Shown piece by piece: positions 11,022 to 16,656 of a stretch of 64,000 nucleotides of DNA; position 1 is the stretch's first letter; each line of letters opens with the position of its first letter. This DNA comes from Paracoccus seriniphilus (GTDB lineage: Bacteria > Pseudomonadota > Alphaproteobacteria > Rhodobacterales > Rhodobacteraceae). The position numbers and the translations under genes are program-made. The stretch is taken from positions 2,524,501 through 2,588,500 of the forward strand of contig NZ_CP067129.1 of assembly GCF_028553745.1 (NCBI RefSeq), written 5' to 3'. The notes below the pieces were generated by a model. That model searched no databases. It was not told where the DNA came from and saw only the letters and a program-made list of their open reading frames with translations.

Positions 11022-11098
11022 GGCCCCGTGGCTCAACTGGATAGAGCAGCCCCCTCCTAAGGGGCAGGTTAGTGGTTCGAATCCACTCGGGGTCACCA
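11022..11098 (+). tRNA. tRNA-Arg (anticodon CCU)
   Basis: A full cloverleaf can be drawn. The acceptor stem GGCCCCG / CGGGGTC contains one G-U pair. The D arm is GCTC / GAGC. The anticodon arm GCCCC / GGGGC has loop CTCCTAA, giving anticodon CCT at 11056-11058. The T arm is AGTGG / CCACT with loop TTCGAAT. The 3' CCA is encoded. It reads AGG codons. The insertion-sequence relic starts 62 bases downstream. Confidence 0.96.
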
Positions 11099-11275: not shown

Positions 11276-11857
11276 TCATGCTCGCAGCAATCTGGGCAGT
11301 CGGGCCAGGTTATTGGCGGCCATCGTCAGAATAAAGCGGGATCGCACCCGTTCGACACCGCGATAGACGGCTTGCGCCATACCGCCGACGGTTTTGGCCC
11401 GGCCGAATGCCTTTTCGATCTTCTTTCGGTGCTTCTGGGACAAGATAAAGCCTTCATGTCGGGCGGTTCTATCGCGATTTCCGGGCGACATGTGGCGTGA
11501 CACAGGCCCTGCGCAGCTCGGACACGAACCCGCCCGCGTCATGGCCGTCGCCATTGTCGCTCAGACCAATGGCGCTCTCAATAGCAACTCTGCTCCAGAC
11601 GTCAGTCGCCGGGTCGATCCTGGGGCATGGCGATGCACCATGTCCAATGCCGCGCGCCTTTCCGCATGACCGTCGGCCTGGGTCAGGTCGCCCTGCACGA
11701 TCAAGCCGTTGCGGTTCTCCATCAGCGCATGGCCGATGAAACACGGCATGGCCCCGGTGTCGGGAGATTTCTCGTAAAGCTGCGCGGCGGGATCAATGCG
11801 CGAGACATGAGTGGCATTCGAGCGCTTCTCGCCTTTACCGCGCCGAGGGCTCATCAT
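11276..11857 (-). pseudogene. IS5-family transposase remnant, three frames
   Basis: Three consecutive minus-strand frames together give the C-terminal half of a DDE transposase. 11857 to about 11590 carries SNATHVSRID, CFIGHALMENRNGL and HAERRAALDMVHRH. About 11545-11469 carries GGFVSELRRACVTPHVA. About 11500-11276 carries TARHEGFILSQKHRKKIEKAFG, the segment with the last catalytic Glu region, then RGVERVRSRFILTMAANNLARLP. At least two frameshifts, a stop and a missing N-terminus make it inactive. Confidence 0.85.
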
Positions 11858-11881
11858 GTTCTCAATCCGCTGTAGAGGTAG

Positions 11882-11899: not shown

Positions 11900-12631
11900 C
11901 TAGACCTTGTAGCTGGGCAGTTTCTGGAAAGCGTCCCGCAATGCATCCCCCCAGCCCGTGGCGATGGCCTGATAAATGGGATCGTCCGCCTGGATGCGCT
12001 TGCTGCGATCCGAGGTGAAGGAATCGGTCTCATAGATCTGAAGGTCAAAGGGCAGACCAACGGACAGGTTCGATTTCACCGTTGAATCGAAGGAAACCAG
12101 CAACAGCTTGATGGCATCGGCGAAATCCATCTTGGGATCATAGGCACGCACGATGATGGGCTTGCCGTATTTGGTCTCACCAATCTGGAAATAGGGCGTA
12201 TCTTCCGTGATCTCGATGAAATTGCCCTCGGGATAGACCAGAAAGACCGTCGGTTTTCCGCCCTTGATCTGCCCCCCCACGATGATGGAAGCGCCGAACT
12301 GGTCGGCAGAGGTCTGCCCTGTTTCAGAGGCTCCGATGATGATTTCGCGCAGCGTCGCCCCGACCAGTCGCGCCACCTGGAACATGGTGGGTTGATGGAG
12401 GATGCTGGGGTCGCGTTCCTCACCCGAAACCGAACGTTCGTCCAGAAGGCTGATCAGCGATTGCGTCGTGGCCAGATTCCCGGCGGTCAGGATCGTGATG
12501 CTGCGTTCGCCCTCGACCTGCCAGGTAAACATCTTCTTGCTGACGGCAAAATTGTCCACGCCCGCGCTGGTGCGCGTGTCGGACATGAACACCAGTCCCC
12601 GGTCAAGTCGCATACCAACGCAATAGGTCAT
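11900..12631 (-). CDS. Anbu peptidase (proteasome-like, ancestral beta subunit)
   Basis: The 243-residue protein has a proteasome beta fold. After Met removal the N-terminal nucleophile is Thr (MTYCVGMRLDRG). Asp18 (mature 17) in MSDTRT and Lys32/33 (mature 31/32) match the Thr1-Asp17-Lys33 centre of proteasomes. Later motifs are ITILTAGNLATTQ and QIGETKYGKPI. Anbu assembles into open ring or helical particles in the cytoplasm; its substrate is not established. It is the last gene of a four-gene operon, 33 bases after the transglutaminase gene. An IS relic ends exactly at its TAG stop without altering the protein. Confidence 0.92.
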   Translation of the reverse strand: MTYCVGMRLDRGLVFMSDTRTSAGVDNFAVSKKMFTWQVEGERSITILTAGNLATTQSLISLLDERSVSGEERDPSILHQPTMFQVARLVGATLREIIIGASETGQTSADQFGASIIVGGQIKGGKPTVFLVYPEGNFIEITEDTPYFQIGETKYGKPIIVRAYDPKMDFADAIKLLLVSFDSTVKSNLSVGLPFDLQIYETDSFTSDRSKRIQADDPIYQAIATGWGDALRDAFQKLPSYKV

Positions 12632-12664
12632 GTCATTTTACCCGAAAGGAATCACCACAGTGTT

Positions 12665-13462
12665 CTACTGCTGGACCTGCAAAGATACCATGAGCGTTTC
12701 ATCGGCACTGCCCATGCGCAGCCCTTCGATGGGTGCCGCATCGCGGGCATCGCGCCCCACGGCGATGCGGACATATTTCCTGTCCGGCGAAACGCCGTTC
12801 GAAACATCAAAGCCAACCCAGCCCAAACCGGCAAGATGAACCTCGGCCCAGGCATGGGTCGCATCCTGTGCAATCTGGTCATTGATCATCAGGTATCCGC
12901 TGACATAGCGCGCCGGCAGCCCGGACAGGCGGGCCGCAGAAATGAAGATCTGCGCGTGATCCTGACAGACGCCGTGATCGCCCTGCATGGCCGTTTCCGC
13001 AGGCGTATCGACGGCGGTGCCACCGGATTGATAGGGCAGCGCATCAAGGATTGCAGCGGACAGGTCATGCAGCCCGGCAAGCTGCGTCTCGGGATTGTCG
13101 GATACCCGCGGCAGCGCCCTGATGGCCTCTCCTGCGGCAGTCAGCGGGGTTTCCTGACAGAACAGCCACAATGGCGTGCGGCCGTTCACCGTTCCCAGAA
13201 CACCCGTGTCGTTCAGGGTCGTCACATGTCCGCCGGCATGAATGCGCAACACCTGGGCACCGGGCGTGATGCTGACCAGATCAACATGATTGCCATATTG
13301 ATCGGTATAGCTTGTCTCGACCTTGCCGCCACTCACCTCGACGGACCAGTCATGCACCGTCTGGACCGGCGAGTTCATCGGCCTGAGACGGACCTTCTGC
13401 AACGCATAATCCACGGGCGCGCTATAGGCGTATTCGGTTGTATGGCTGATGCTGAGTTTCAT
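12665..13462 (-). CDS. Transglutaminase-like cysteine protease family protein of the Anbu operon
   Basis: The product is 265 residues. The N-terminal domain (SISHTTEYAYSAPV, then LRPM) is the bacterial transglutaminase N-terminal region. The catalytic core has Cys166 in GVCQDHAQ, His203 in ATHAWAEVHL and Asp219 in WVGFDVSNG, the papain-like triad. There is no signal peptide, so it is cytoplasmic. Such proteins can hydrolyse or form amide bonds. The gene starts immediately after the alpha-E stop with no gap. Together with the ATP-grasp protein it suggests making and removing a peptide or amide tag, which is inference. Confidence 0.9.
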   Translation of the reverse strand: MKLSISHTTEYAYSAPVDYALQKVRLRPMNSPVQTVHDWSVEVSGGKVETSYTDQYGNHVDLVSITPGAQVLRIHAGGHVTTLNDTGVLGTVNGRTPLWLFCQETPLTAAGEAIRALPRVSDNPETQLAGLHDLSAAILDALPYQSGGTAVDTPAETAMQGDHGVCQDHAQIFISAARLSGLPARYVSGYLMINDQIAQDATHAWAEVHLAGLGWVGFDVSNGVSPDRKYVRIAVGRDARDAAPIEGLRMGSADETLMVSLQVQQ

Positions 13463-14404
13463 CTAGCTGGTAAACCTGTAATCGAGTTCCACCTGACGGG
13501 CGATCTGCGCCGTGCTGTCCAGCACGGAGTTGACGAACTCATGCAGGCCTTCGTCGAAGATCGAGTTGATGTCGCGGTCCATCAGTTGTGCGCAAAGCGT
13601 TTTCGCCATCTGATATCCCTTCCCCTGAGTTCCGCAATCCTCGACCAGATTCGCCAGGCTACGCACGATCTGCTCGGCGCAAAACGCCAGTGATCGCGGC
13701 ATCCGGCGATCGAGGATCAGGAATTCCGCAATGGCCGGCGCGGTGAAATCATCTTCGACCGCCCAACGGAAGGACCGATGGGCCGAGACCGAACGCAGGA
13801 TCGTCTCCCACTGGATATTGTCCAACCGGCTACCGACAAAAGAGGGCGAAGGCAGCAGCGAATAATATTTGACGTCGATGATGCGGGCCGTGTTGTCCAT
13901 CCGCTCGATAAAAGTGCCCAGGCGGCAGAAGTCATAGGTGTCATTGCGCAACATGGTGCCGTGAAGCGCCCCGCGCACCAGCCCCGACTGCTGGCGGATG
14001 GTGGCCAGAACAGAGGGCAGCTCGGTCTCGGAAACCGGCTCCTTCAGCAGCTCGGTGAAGAGCATCCAGGTCTCGTTCACGGCCAGCCAGACCTCGGTGG
14101 TCAATGCGGTGCGCACCATGCGTGCATTGTCACGGGCAGATTTGATGATCGACAGCACCGAGCTGGGATTCGTCCCGTCGCGCAAGAGAAAATCGACCAC
14201 CTGTCTGCTGTCATAGCCGGAGTGTGACGCCTCATAGGCGGACTGCGCCGCCAATGTTGCGATCACCGAGCGCCATTCCGTTTCGGCATTCGTCGAACGG
14301 GTCAGGGCAATGCGGAACCCTGCCTCGATCAGGCGTGCCGTATTTTCGGCGCGCTCAAGCGAGCGAAACATCCAGTAAAGACCACCTGCAGTTTTTCCCA
14401 GCAT
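13463..14404 (-). CDS. Alpha-E domain protein of the Anbu operon
   Basis: The 313-residue, almost all-helical protein opens with LGKTAGGLYWMFRSLERAENTARLIE, the signature of the alpha-E (DUF403) family (broken pattern: YWM..R..ERAEN.AR). It is found next to circularly permuted ATP-grasp and transglutaminase genes in many bacteria. Its biochemical role is unknown; the family has been proposed to work with peptide-ligase or transglutaminase partners. It starts one base after the ATP-grasp stop and abuts the next gene, so the operon is tightly coupled. Confidence 0.9.
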   Translation of the reverse strand: MLGKTAGGLYWMFRSLERAENTARLIEAGFRIALTRSTNAETEWRSVIATLAAQSAYEASHSGYDSRQVVDFLLRDGTNPSSVLSIIKSARDNARMVRTALTTEVWLAVNETWMLFTELLKEPVSETELPSVLATIRQQSGLVRGALHGTMLRNDTYDFCRLGTFIERMDNTARIIDVKYYSLLPSPSFVGSRLDNIQWETILRSVSAHRSFRWAVEDDFTAPAIAEFLILDRRMPRSLAFCAEQIVRSLANLVEDCGTQGKGYQMAKTLCAQLMDRDINSIFDEGLHEFVNSVLDSTAQIARQVELDYRFTS

Positions 14405-14405
14405 A

Positions 14406-15830
14406 TCAGTCTTCCAGCACCCATGTGTCCTTGGTGCCGCCGCCCTGGCTTGAATTCACCACCAGCGACCCCTCCTGCAGGGCAACGCGCGTCAGCCCGC
14501 CCGGCGTGATATTGATCCCTTTCGGCGAAACCAGCGCGAAGGGCCGAAGATCCACATGTCGCGGCGCCAGACCGCTTTCTGTAAAGATCGGCACGGTAGA
14601 CAGCGCCAATGTCGGCTGCGCGATGTAATTCGCGGGTCGGGCACGCAGCTTGGCCGCGAAATCCGCCAATTCCTGCTTGCTGGCCGTGGGCCCGACAAGC
14701 ATCCCGTATCCCCCCGAGCCATGCACCTCTTTCACGACCAGTTCCGAAAGGTTGTCCAGCACGTATTTCAGGCTGTCCGCCTCGGAGCAACGATAGGTTT
14801 CGACGTTCTTCAAGATCGCAGGTTCGCCCGTATAGAACCGCACGATATCCGGCAGATAGCTATAGACAGCCTTGTCATCGGCCACACCCGTTCCGGGGGC
14901 GTTGGCAATGGTGATATTACCTGCCCGATAGACGTCCATGATTCCCGGAATGCCCAGCATGGAAACCGGATTGAAGGTCAGGGGGTCAAGATATTCATCG
15001 TCGACCCGCCGATAGATCACATCGATGGTCTTGTAGCCCTTGGTGGTGCGCATCGCGATTCGGCCATCCACGACCTTCAGATCGTGGCCTTCGACCAGTT
15101 CGACGCCCATCTGGTCGGCCAGGAAGCTGTGTTCGAAATAGGCCGAATTGTGGATCCCGGGTGTCAGGATGACAACGCATGGCCGCCCCGAACAGGAGGA
15201 GGGGGCGCTGGCCTCCAGCGAGCGACGCAGGTTCTTGGGATAGTCGCTGACGGGCTGCACCTTGATCGCGCTGAACAGCTCGGGGAACATCTGCAGCATC
15301 GTCTCGCGGTTTTCCAGCATGTAGCTGACACCTGAGGGCGTGCGCGCATTGTCCTCCAGCACGAAGAAATCATCCTCGCCGGTGCGGACGATATCGGTGC
15401 CGACAATATGCGTGTAGACATCTCCGGGCGGGCTGAACCCCATCATCTGCGGCAGAAAGGCATCATTGCGGGCAATCAGATCCACCGGAATGACGCCCGC
15501 GCGCAGGATTTCCTGCCGATTATAGATATCATGCAGAAAGGCATTGATGGCATAGACGCGCTGCTCGATGCCCTTGGACAATCTCGTCCATTCCCGCGAA
15601 CTGAGGATACGGGGCACCAGGTCAAAGGGGATCAGGCGCTCTTCGGCATCCGTCTGACCATAGACATTGAAGGTAATACCGGTGCGGCGGAAGAAGGCCT
15701 CGGCCTCTTGCGATTTCTTGGCGAGACGTGCGTTGTTCTGCCCGGAAAACCATTCATCATAGGTCTTATAGGGCGGGCGTGCTGTCCCGGCGTCATACAT
15801 TTCGCTGTAGAAGGACGGTTTTTCGTTCAT
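14406..15830 (-). CDS. Circularly permuted type 2 ATP-grasp protein of the Anbu operon
   Basis: The 474-residue protein belongs to the CP_ATPgrasp_2 family, predicted amide or peptide ligases. Motifs include FLPQMMGFSPPG, FFVLEDNARTPSGVSYMLENR (about residues 175-195), YRRVDDEYLDP, NAPGTGVADDKAVY (nucleotide-binding loop) and VVKEVHGSGGYGML. There is no signal peptide. It is first in the operon, which continues with alpha-E, transglutaminase and Anbu. A perfect 8-bp inverted repeat lies 113-134 bases upstream of its start. Confidence 0.9.
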   Translation of the reverse strand: MNEKPSFYSEMYDAGTARPPYKTYDEWFSGQNNARLAKKSQEAEAFFRRTGITFNVYGQTDAEERLIPFDLVPRILSSREWTRLSKGIEQRVYAINAFLHDIYNRQEILRAGVIPVDLIARNDAFLPQMMGFSPPGDVYTHIVGTDIVRTGEDDFFVLEDNARTPSGVSYMLENRETMLQMFPELFSAIKVQPVSDYPKNLRRSLEASAPSSCSGRPCVVILTPGIHNSAYFEHSFLADQMGVELVEGHDLKVVDGRIAMRTTKGYKTIDVIYRRVDDEYLDPLTFNPVSMLGIPGIMDVYRAGNITIANAPGTGVADDKAVYSYLPDIVRFYTGEPAILKNVETYRCSEADSLKYVLDNLSELVVKEVHGSGGYGMLVGPTASKQELADFAAKLRARPANYIAQPTLALSTVPIFTESGLAPRHVDLRPFALVSPKGINITPGGLTRVALQEGSLVVNSSQGGGTKDTWVLED

Positions 15831-16251
15831 GACCTCAAGACTACGCCTCCCCCCGAACCATACAAGCTGGCCGCTGCAGCGGTGCGCCCTGCCTCTGATG
15901 ATTGCACGAAAAAGGGCAGATTTCCTGATTTATGCTCATGATTTCATCAAAAAAGCTTGATGAATGCCCGAATCCGTTCAGCTGTCCATTCGCGTTCACG
16001 GGCAATATCCAAGGAAAGTGGCATCGGTGATCCTCACGGCGCGACCTCACGACATGATGAACATTCTTCTTCGGCTTTCATCTGGACGGCATGTGTCTGC
16101 CGATCCCGCAGCAGAAAAAATGCCGATCTCGGCGGGTATCCGCGCCGTTCCGCCCCGGTCTGTTTCACGGTGAACCGCAGTGCAAATGAACGGTTGCTCT
16201 CCGGGCGCTGCAGAAGACCGCGCCCGACTGCGAAAGAAATAGGAGAACCAC
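15831..16251. other. 421-bp divergent intergenic region
   Basis: It separates the Anbu operon (minus) from the secreted-protein gene at 16252 (plus). No gene is seen: the open frames here have poor codon usage and no family match. It contains the inverted repeat at 15943-15964 within a locally AT-rich patch (about 15905-15965), a likely control region. Confidence 0.5.
15943..15964. promoter_or_regulatory. Perfect 8-bp inverted repeat upstream of the Anbu operon
   Basis: TTCATCAA and TTGATGAA are separated by AAAAGC. There is no T-run suited to termination on either strand. Its position 113-134 bases upstream of the ATP-grasp start and the AT-rich setting suggest a repressor or activator operator. 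Confidence 0.4.
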
Positions 16252-16656
16252 ATGTTTCGCCAAACCGCATTTGCCCTGGGTCTCGGCCTTGTCGCAACCG
16301 CTTCGGTCGCTCAGCAATCCGACGCCCCTGCCCCGGCACCCAACCGTCTGGATGCAGCCCAGACCTATGAGGCGGCACGCAACCAGCTGGGCATCCTGAA
16401 ATATTGCCAGGCACAGGGCCATTCCGGCGGCGAAGCCGTCGCGGCTCAGGAGAAGATGGTGTCGATGCTGCCCCAGGGCGACGAAAGCAAGGGCATGGCG
16501 GCCGAGGAAAAAGGCGCAAACGGCACCGTATCCATTGCGGGGGCGGAAATTTCGCTGAAGGATGCCTCGGAACGTGATGGCATTTCGATCCAGGATCAAT
16601 GCAAGCAGATCGAATCCGCGGTCAATGAGGTTGCCAAGCAGTTGCCCGCAGGCTGA
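16252..16656 (+). CDS. Small secreted protein (annotated in relatives as ESAT-6-like pore-forming)
   Basis: The product is 134 residues with a signal peptide (about residues 1-20, cleavage after SVA). The mature part starts acidic and Pro/Ala-rich, then has YEAARNQLGILKYCQAQGH and, near the end, ISIQDQCKQIES. The two cysteines may form a disulfide linking two helices. My recollection is that similar alphaproteobacterial proteins carry the label pore-forming ESAT-6 family; I see no WXG motif, so that label should be used with care. The ribosome site AGGAGA lies six bases before the ATG. It is divergent from the Anbu operon. Confidence 0.7.
   Translation: MFRQTAFALGLGLVATASVAQQSDAPAPAPNRLDAAQTYEAARNQLGILKYCQAQGHSGGEAVAAQEKMVSMLPQGDESKGMAAEEKGANGTVSIAGAEISLKDASERDGISIQDQCKQIESAVNEVAKQLPAG

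Follow-up and report, generated by a model that had tools for sequence, protein, structure and literature searches.

What does the ligase of an Anbu operon modify, and what does its proteasome-like hydrolase cut? The question is raised here by a 64,000-nucleotide stretch of Paracoccus seriniphilus DNA (NZ_CP067129.1, positions 2,524,501 to 2,588,500; hereafter the window), whose minus strand encodes, in gene order, a circularly permuted ATP-grasp ligase, an alpha-E protein, a transglutaminase-fold protein (TG) and Anbu, a proteasome-like N-terminal Thr hydrolase. The original prediction, made from the sequence of the window, had ATP-grasp and alpha-E build a peptide or tag, TG edit it and Anbu degrade it. 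This scheme is in substance a published hypothesis, as the same operon is described, and peptide synthesis, tagging and degradation are discussed, in PMC5666114 and PMC6376114 (cited, like all PMC articles below, from extracts of their text), which in turn cite Iyer 2009 and Valas 2008; the association of these families is indeed known. What seems not to have been described is the C-terminal Gln of the operon TG. The window protein ends in VSLQVQQ, and its final Gln-Val-Gln-Gln is encoded at 12668..12679 (minus strand) by the codons CAG GTC CAG CAG, with the stop directly after. No description of this Gln end was found in the open-licence PMC literature; one may stand in Iyer et al. 2009 or PMC2747892.

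To place this end in context, operon TGs were compared across two sets of loci. Set A comprised the window and 80 stretches picked by their Anbu or alpha-E content, not by their tails. Its operon TGs carry a terminal Gln in 34/47 cases and a Gln within the last three residues in 44/47, against 25/576 and 74/576 for background open reading frames (ORFs) of at least 250 residues. Clusters of fused ATP-grasp–alpha-E genes with large TGs have homologous ligase, alpha-E and TG domains and adjoin the Anbu set in some loci, but the TGs standing alone beside the fused genes lack the Gln end (terminal Gln in 0/20, Gln within the last three in 1/20); locus L073 has both kinds, the operon TG ending in SDQ and the paralog in FAV. 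The source genome of the window (4.26 Mb) has a single, unfused alpha-E. Set B, retrieved with a pattern for the ATP-grasp C-terminus that allowed one Gln and one Lys codon and so favours low-GC genomes, holds at least 118 loci. Pooling by script gave 88 complete operon TGs, of which set A contributed 45 and set B 43; 56/88 have a terminal Gln, 33/88 at least four Gln in the last 15 residues and 64/88 either feature; the corresponding background values are 39/776, 4/776 and 42/776. After thinning to below 50% domain identity, a terminal Gln was retained in 17/33 TGs (binomial 4e-14 versus 39/776), with Gln frequencies at positions –1 to –5 of 0.52, 0.42, 0.27, 0.24 and 0.18, and of 0.00–0.18 from –6 inward. 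Within the window's own family, 87 of 120 genomes gave a match; among the 30 best-scoring genomes, selected with a query that included the tail and counting the window and one genome also present in set A, 28 have a terminal Gln, the last codon being CAA in 15 and CAG in 13. A tail-trimmed profile gave the same picture, 117 of the best 120 proteins ending in Gln (the named ones largely from Erythrobacter-like genera). Where a tail holds at least three Gln, both Gln codons are used in 40/48 cases, evidence for selection at the amino-acid level and against simple slippage. By these sequence comparisons, the excess of Gln ends is real, peaks at the final residue and is specific to the operon TG versus its paralogs; a selected C-terminal Gln or Gln-rich end is a feature of this TG in many lineages.

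The Gln end extends beyond the Pseudomonadota to Maribacter (L149), Chryseobacterium (L185), Nubsella (L200), Acidobacteria (L203), Anaerolineae (L223) and Ktedonobacter (L253), as judged by record titles. It is also independent of Anbu in the genomes compared. Among the set-B genomes, many of them metagenome-assembled and of unrated completeness, 29 carry a Gln end, be it on TG or on another subunit, with Anbu in 15 and no Anbu match in 14; five of the 14 that have no Gln end gave an Anbu match, which is partial in two. The Gln end is likewise kept in four three-gene operons without Anbu whose genomes are rated 100% complete (L137–L140). Other subunits can carry such tails: at least four Gln in the last 15 residues occur in 9/161 alpha-E proteins (e.g. 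L209, L215, L224, L255), 5/178 ATP-grasp proteins (two doubtful; examples are L176, L218 and L079) and 3/77 Anbu proteins, compared to 4/776 in the background. L079, from the window's own genus, has an ATP-grasp protein with a long QGQSQ-type tail ending in GQQ. The conserved Gln end points to a substrate that may be carried on the operon's own proteins.

We tentatively favour the reading, at a probability of roughly 0.35, that the operon encodes in this Gln end a substrate for its own ATP-grasp/alpha-E ligase and that Anbu is an optional hydrolase. ATP-grasp, with its alpha-E partner, would activate the C-terminal carboxylate of the tail, or a side chain after deamidation, and the activated tail would be joined to an amine, an amino acid or a peptide. 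The TG fold would act on Gln side chains, and Anbu, where present, would trim or take off the added moiety by cutting at or near Gln. The nitrogen-limitation response of related operons in Pseudomonas putida and Burkholderia cenocepacia suggests that the modification may be coupled to nitrogen or glutamine status. In the AlphaFold2 model of the window TG (pLDDT 93.4; best solved fold match 3isr, from Cytophaga hutchinsonii), the last strand spans residues 255–264, leaving Gln265 as a predicted free end; in the thinned set, the C-terminal end runs 14–63 residues beyond the last conserved motif. The Gln end would be a sequence-defined candidate substrate for both enzymes, as tail peptide or native TG for the ligase, and as Gln at P1 or the ligase product for Anbu. 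A stricter version, which we consider doubtful, would make the Anbu operon and its Anbu-less relatives a hard-wired tail modification system, in which the Gln tail of one of the operon's own subunits is extended or conjugated by the circularly permuted ATP-grasp/alpha-E ligase, Anbu is a Gln-directed reversal enzyme and there is no free tag.

If true, such hard-wiring would mean that ligases of an unrelated kind use terminal Gln much as the Pup system does. The Pup-proteasome system similarly combines an amidoligase with a proteasome homologue, and Pup ends in G[EQ] as the operon TG ends in Gln; the Pup end is conjugated through a terminal Glu or deamidated Gln (PMC2588565). The Anbu operon differs in having an ATP-grasp rather than a PafA-type ligase (PafA was not sought elsewhere in the genome), an optional Anbu, no AAA ATPase gene and no free small tag. 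With 1, 0 and 33 bases between the genes there is no space for a separate tag gene, and no free Pup-like tag ending in G[EQ] lies inside the operon, although no Pup search was made in the rest of the genome. The predicted distinctness from Pup holds for the enzymes, whereas the terminal Gln is a Pup-like feature. The RimK/RimB/RpsF system offers a second parallel: RimK extends RpsF at its C-terminus with Glu (PMC12239564), so that an ATP-grasp ligase working on a protein C-terminus is paired with a peptidase, as we infer for tailing by the Anbu operon. Here the ATP-grasp is circularly permuted, the end is Gln not Glu, and the peptidase is of the proteasome fold, not aspartic.

In a comparison of one Anbu per locus (66 loci and the window), Thr2 is kept in 66/67 and Asp18 and Lys33 in 67/67 (mature residues 1, 17 and 32); the window protein has all three, its Thr becoming N-terminal after Met removal, and its five solved relatives, 5loy, 5nyj and 5nyf among them, include named Anbu structures; 5nyw and 5lox are further structures for the known Anbu operon. 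Its S1 pocket, T20-S30-T48-L52-T55 in mature numbering, is of the Anbu-1 type, with Ser at residue 30 where Phe or Tyr is common; the pocket of Pa-Anbu consists of T20, F30, T48, L52 and S55, and the Anbu-1 pocket is described as narrow and amphiphilic (PMC5666114). These S1 residues and the amphiphilic pocket are compatible with, not specific to, the prediction that Anbu is a Gln-directed hydrolase. The short peptide substrates named in the extract of PMC5666114 include none with Gln at P1.

Several observations weigh against a Gln-tail substrate. The end is absent from six actinobacterial or Bacillota TGs (L146, L153, L196, L186, L198, L214), from those of Prochlorococcus (L245), Zobellia (L206) and several Burkholderiales, and 16/33 thinned TGs lack a terminal Gln. 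The counts lack phylogenetic independence, and the background is made up of greedily called ORFs, not verified genes. Tails on another subunit stand at 5/24 versus 4/64 (p 0.058, one of the 4/64 being a spurious ORF), so that movement of the tail to another subunit to make up for a missing TG tail is only suggestive. As to the enzymes, Anbu was inactive on BODIPY-casein and a peptide library, among others (PMC5666114), making general cleavage after Gln unlikely; pull-downs with Anbu as bait gave no specific partner, and phosphate release by the Yersinia ATP-grasp protein was not raised by free glutamine or glutamate (PMC6376114).

The alternative that survives best, and which we regard as somewhat unlikely, is the published view of which the original prediction is a variant: ATP-grasp/alpha-E and TG would either attach a tag to other cellular proteins or synthesize a free peptide, with Anbu degrading the tagged proteins or that peptide. 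The composition of the operon favours it. On the minus strand of the window, the genes for ATP-grasp (first gene, 14406..15830; 474 residues; PF14403/PF04174), alpha-E (13463..14404; 313 residues; PF04168), TG (12665..13462; 265 residues; PF08379+PF01841) and Anbu (11900..12631; 243 residues; PF00227) are contiguous as predicted, each protein scoring above its family's Pfam cut-off, and their spacing suggests co-transcription. ATP-grasp matches PF14403 over its full length (E 6e-164, 545.8 bits against a cut-off of 32, profile 1–374 of 374), and 130 positions are at least 95% identical to the window across 68 loci, the C-terminal NSSQGGGxKDxW motif among them. Its closest solved relative, 3n6x (E 1e-192), is named glutathionylspermidine synthase by its depositors, a label given by similarity only. 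The alpha-E protein (E 1e-86 versus PF04168) is all-helical in its AlphaFold2 model (pLDDT 89.6), and E17 and R18 are invariant in a 70-sequence alignment (A1). With the same four genes, order and catalytic residues as the operon of Valas and Bourne 2008 and Iyer et al. 2009 (as cited), and no difference from it, the window locus is a standard, ordinary Anbu operon, the C-terminal Gln of TG being a family-wide tendency. Also in favour of tagging or peptide synthesis are the release of phosphate from ATP by the Yersinia ATP-grasp protein (PMC6376114) and the binding of epoxomicin at Thr1 of Pa-Anbu (PMC5666114); yet no peptidase activity of Anbu is reported in these two articles, and none was found for Pa-Anbu.

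Co-occurrence cuts both ways for the published view. In one set of 200 genomes from the phylum, alpha-E occurs in 112 and Anbu in 69; 68/69 Anbu genomes have alpha-E (hypergeometric 5e-22, uncorrected for relatedness), but Anbu is absent from 44/112 alpha-E genomes, which makes it an add-on to a core that exists without it. Judged by coordinates, nine genomes have an Anbu that is on a different contig or over 10 kb away from alpha-E, or have no alpha-E; eight of these nine have both alpha-E and, elsewhere in the genome, ATP-grasp, and G094 has neither. A PF08379 scan of 12 genomes gave no match over the cut-off in five that have Anbu, ATP-grasp and alpha-E (none in G082, G196, G031 and G102; below the cut-off in G186). 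The ATP-grasp/alpha-E pair behaves as the core, and Anbu as an add-on met almost only with it; the comparison ranks ATP-grasp/alpha-E first, followed by TG and Anbu, partners of which either may be missing. A scheme in which building, editing and degrading parts have equal standing is thus not upheld, although a module for ligation and hydrolysis is plausible, and co-occurrence supports a dependence of Anbu on the core. Further against the published view, the operon holds no tag gene and no fifth gene travels with the four among 81 clustered loci. The widest other ORF clusters, at 18, 17 and 9 of these loci and median distances of 1.1–4 kb, have motifs reminiscent of ABC ATPases, response regulators and short-chain dehydrogenases. 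In three genomes (L069, L070 and L071), an Anbu unlinked from its operon adjoins mutS.

An unlikely alternative is that the tail is not a substrate at all: it may guard against proteases that recognize C-terminal degrons, serve in docking or solubility, or sense glutamine supply through translation of its Gln codons. A short tail in many lineages would fit, as would the nitrogen response of related operons (PMC7801951, PMC8050072, PMC5491218). When nitrogen is limiting, P. putida raises expression of ATP-grasp, alpha-E and TG 11–15-fold and that of Anbu itself 1.1-fold in the wild type, and induction persists in an rpoN mutant (PMC7801951). In another study, Anbu and ATP-grasp are both up on nitrate, and the promoter of ATP-grasp is nitrogen-responsive while that before Anbu is not (PMC8050072); a related cluster of Burkholderia cenocepacia depends on NtrC and sigma-54 (PMC5491218). 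Against this alternative, the tail is specific to the operon TG and not to paralogs of the same fold, occurs with and without Anbu, and in the form of one terminal Gln would be a poor stalling signal. The region upstream of the window operon (15831..16251, minus strand) has no convincing sigma-54 site (best score in the 300 bases before the operon 12.5 of 16, shuffle mean 11.2). Near-perfect sites (15.5 of 16) lie upstream of ATP-grasp in L093, L094, L128 and L078, such as CTGGCACGGGCCTTGCG, which precedes the called start by about 60 bases. By eye, the region upstream of the window operon also contains an inverted repeat, TTCATCAA-N6-TTGATGAA at 15943-15964, a possible operator.

Gln is the classic transglutaminase donor, and the tail could alternatively be the acyl-donor site of TG itself, which would cross-link or deamidate itself or its partners to regulate assembly. 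We consider this distinctly unlikely. The fold of TG is of the transglutaminase type and, in a comparison of one TG per locus (67 sequences), its catalytic residues are intact as predicted: Cys166 is Cys in 62/67, and His203 and Asp219 are each kept in 66/67 with one gap, the window protein having the complete Cys-His-Asp triad of a transglutaminase/papain-like enzyme. The donor role of Gln is also noted in PMC6376114. However, the tail is kept on TGs that lack Cys166, which argues that the role is not purely cis-catalytic, even if a second TG might act in trans, and the favoured Gln position is the extreme C-terminus. Among the 88 pooled TGs the Cys is missing in three, of which L137 and L139 have the Gln end and L141 does not; in a TG outside the 88 (L120), Gly replaces the Cys and the end is rich in Gln. 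His and Asp are kept in L137, L139 and L141. Large TG proteins of about 1,100 residues (e.g. L134, L136, L192, L205) share a C-terminal TLDLR motif. Finally, the proposal of PMC5666114 that Anbu alone is a general peptidase in nitrogen starvation, with the other three genes forming a separate neighbouring pathway, fits G094, which has Anbu and no match to the core, but is very improbable given alpha-E in 68/69 Anbu genomes, including the eight in which Anbu is unlinked. The Anbu of G094 (L062), whose genome also gave no match to PF14403 or PF08379, has the S1 residues T-H-A-L-T.

Away from the operon, the genome of the window contains another PF08379 TG gene, whose product has the C-terminus ADIALA, and one further PF00227 gene besides Anbu, adjoined by an ORF that reads like HslU. 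The named best matches to alpha-E and Anbu are Roseovarius, Lentibacter and similar marine genera of the Rhodobacterales. The divergent neighbour of the operon (16252-16656, plus strand) matches the NCBIfam entry 'pore-forming ESAT-6 family protein'. Downstream of Anbu lies a tRNA-Arg(CCT) at 11022-11098, and the interval between them (11276-11860) resembles, by eye, decayed insertion-sequence ORFs.

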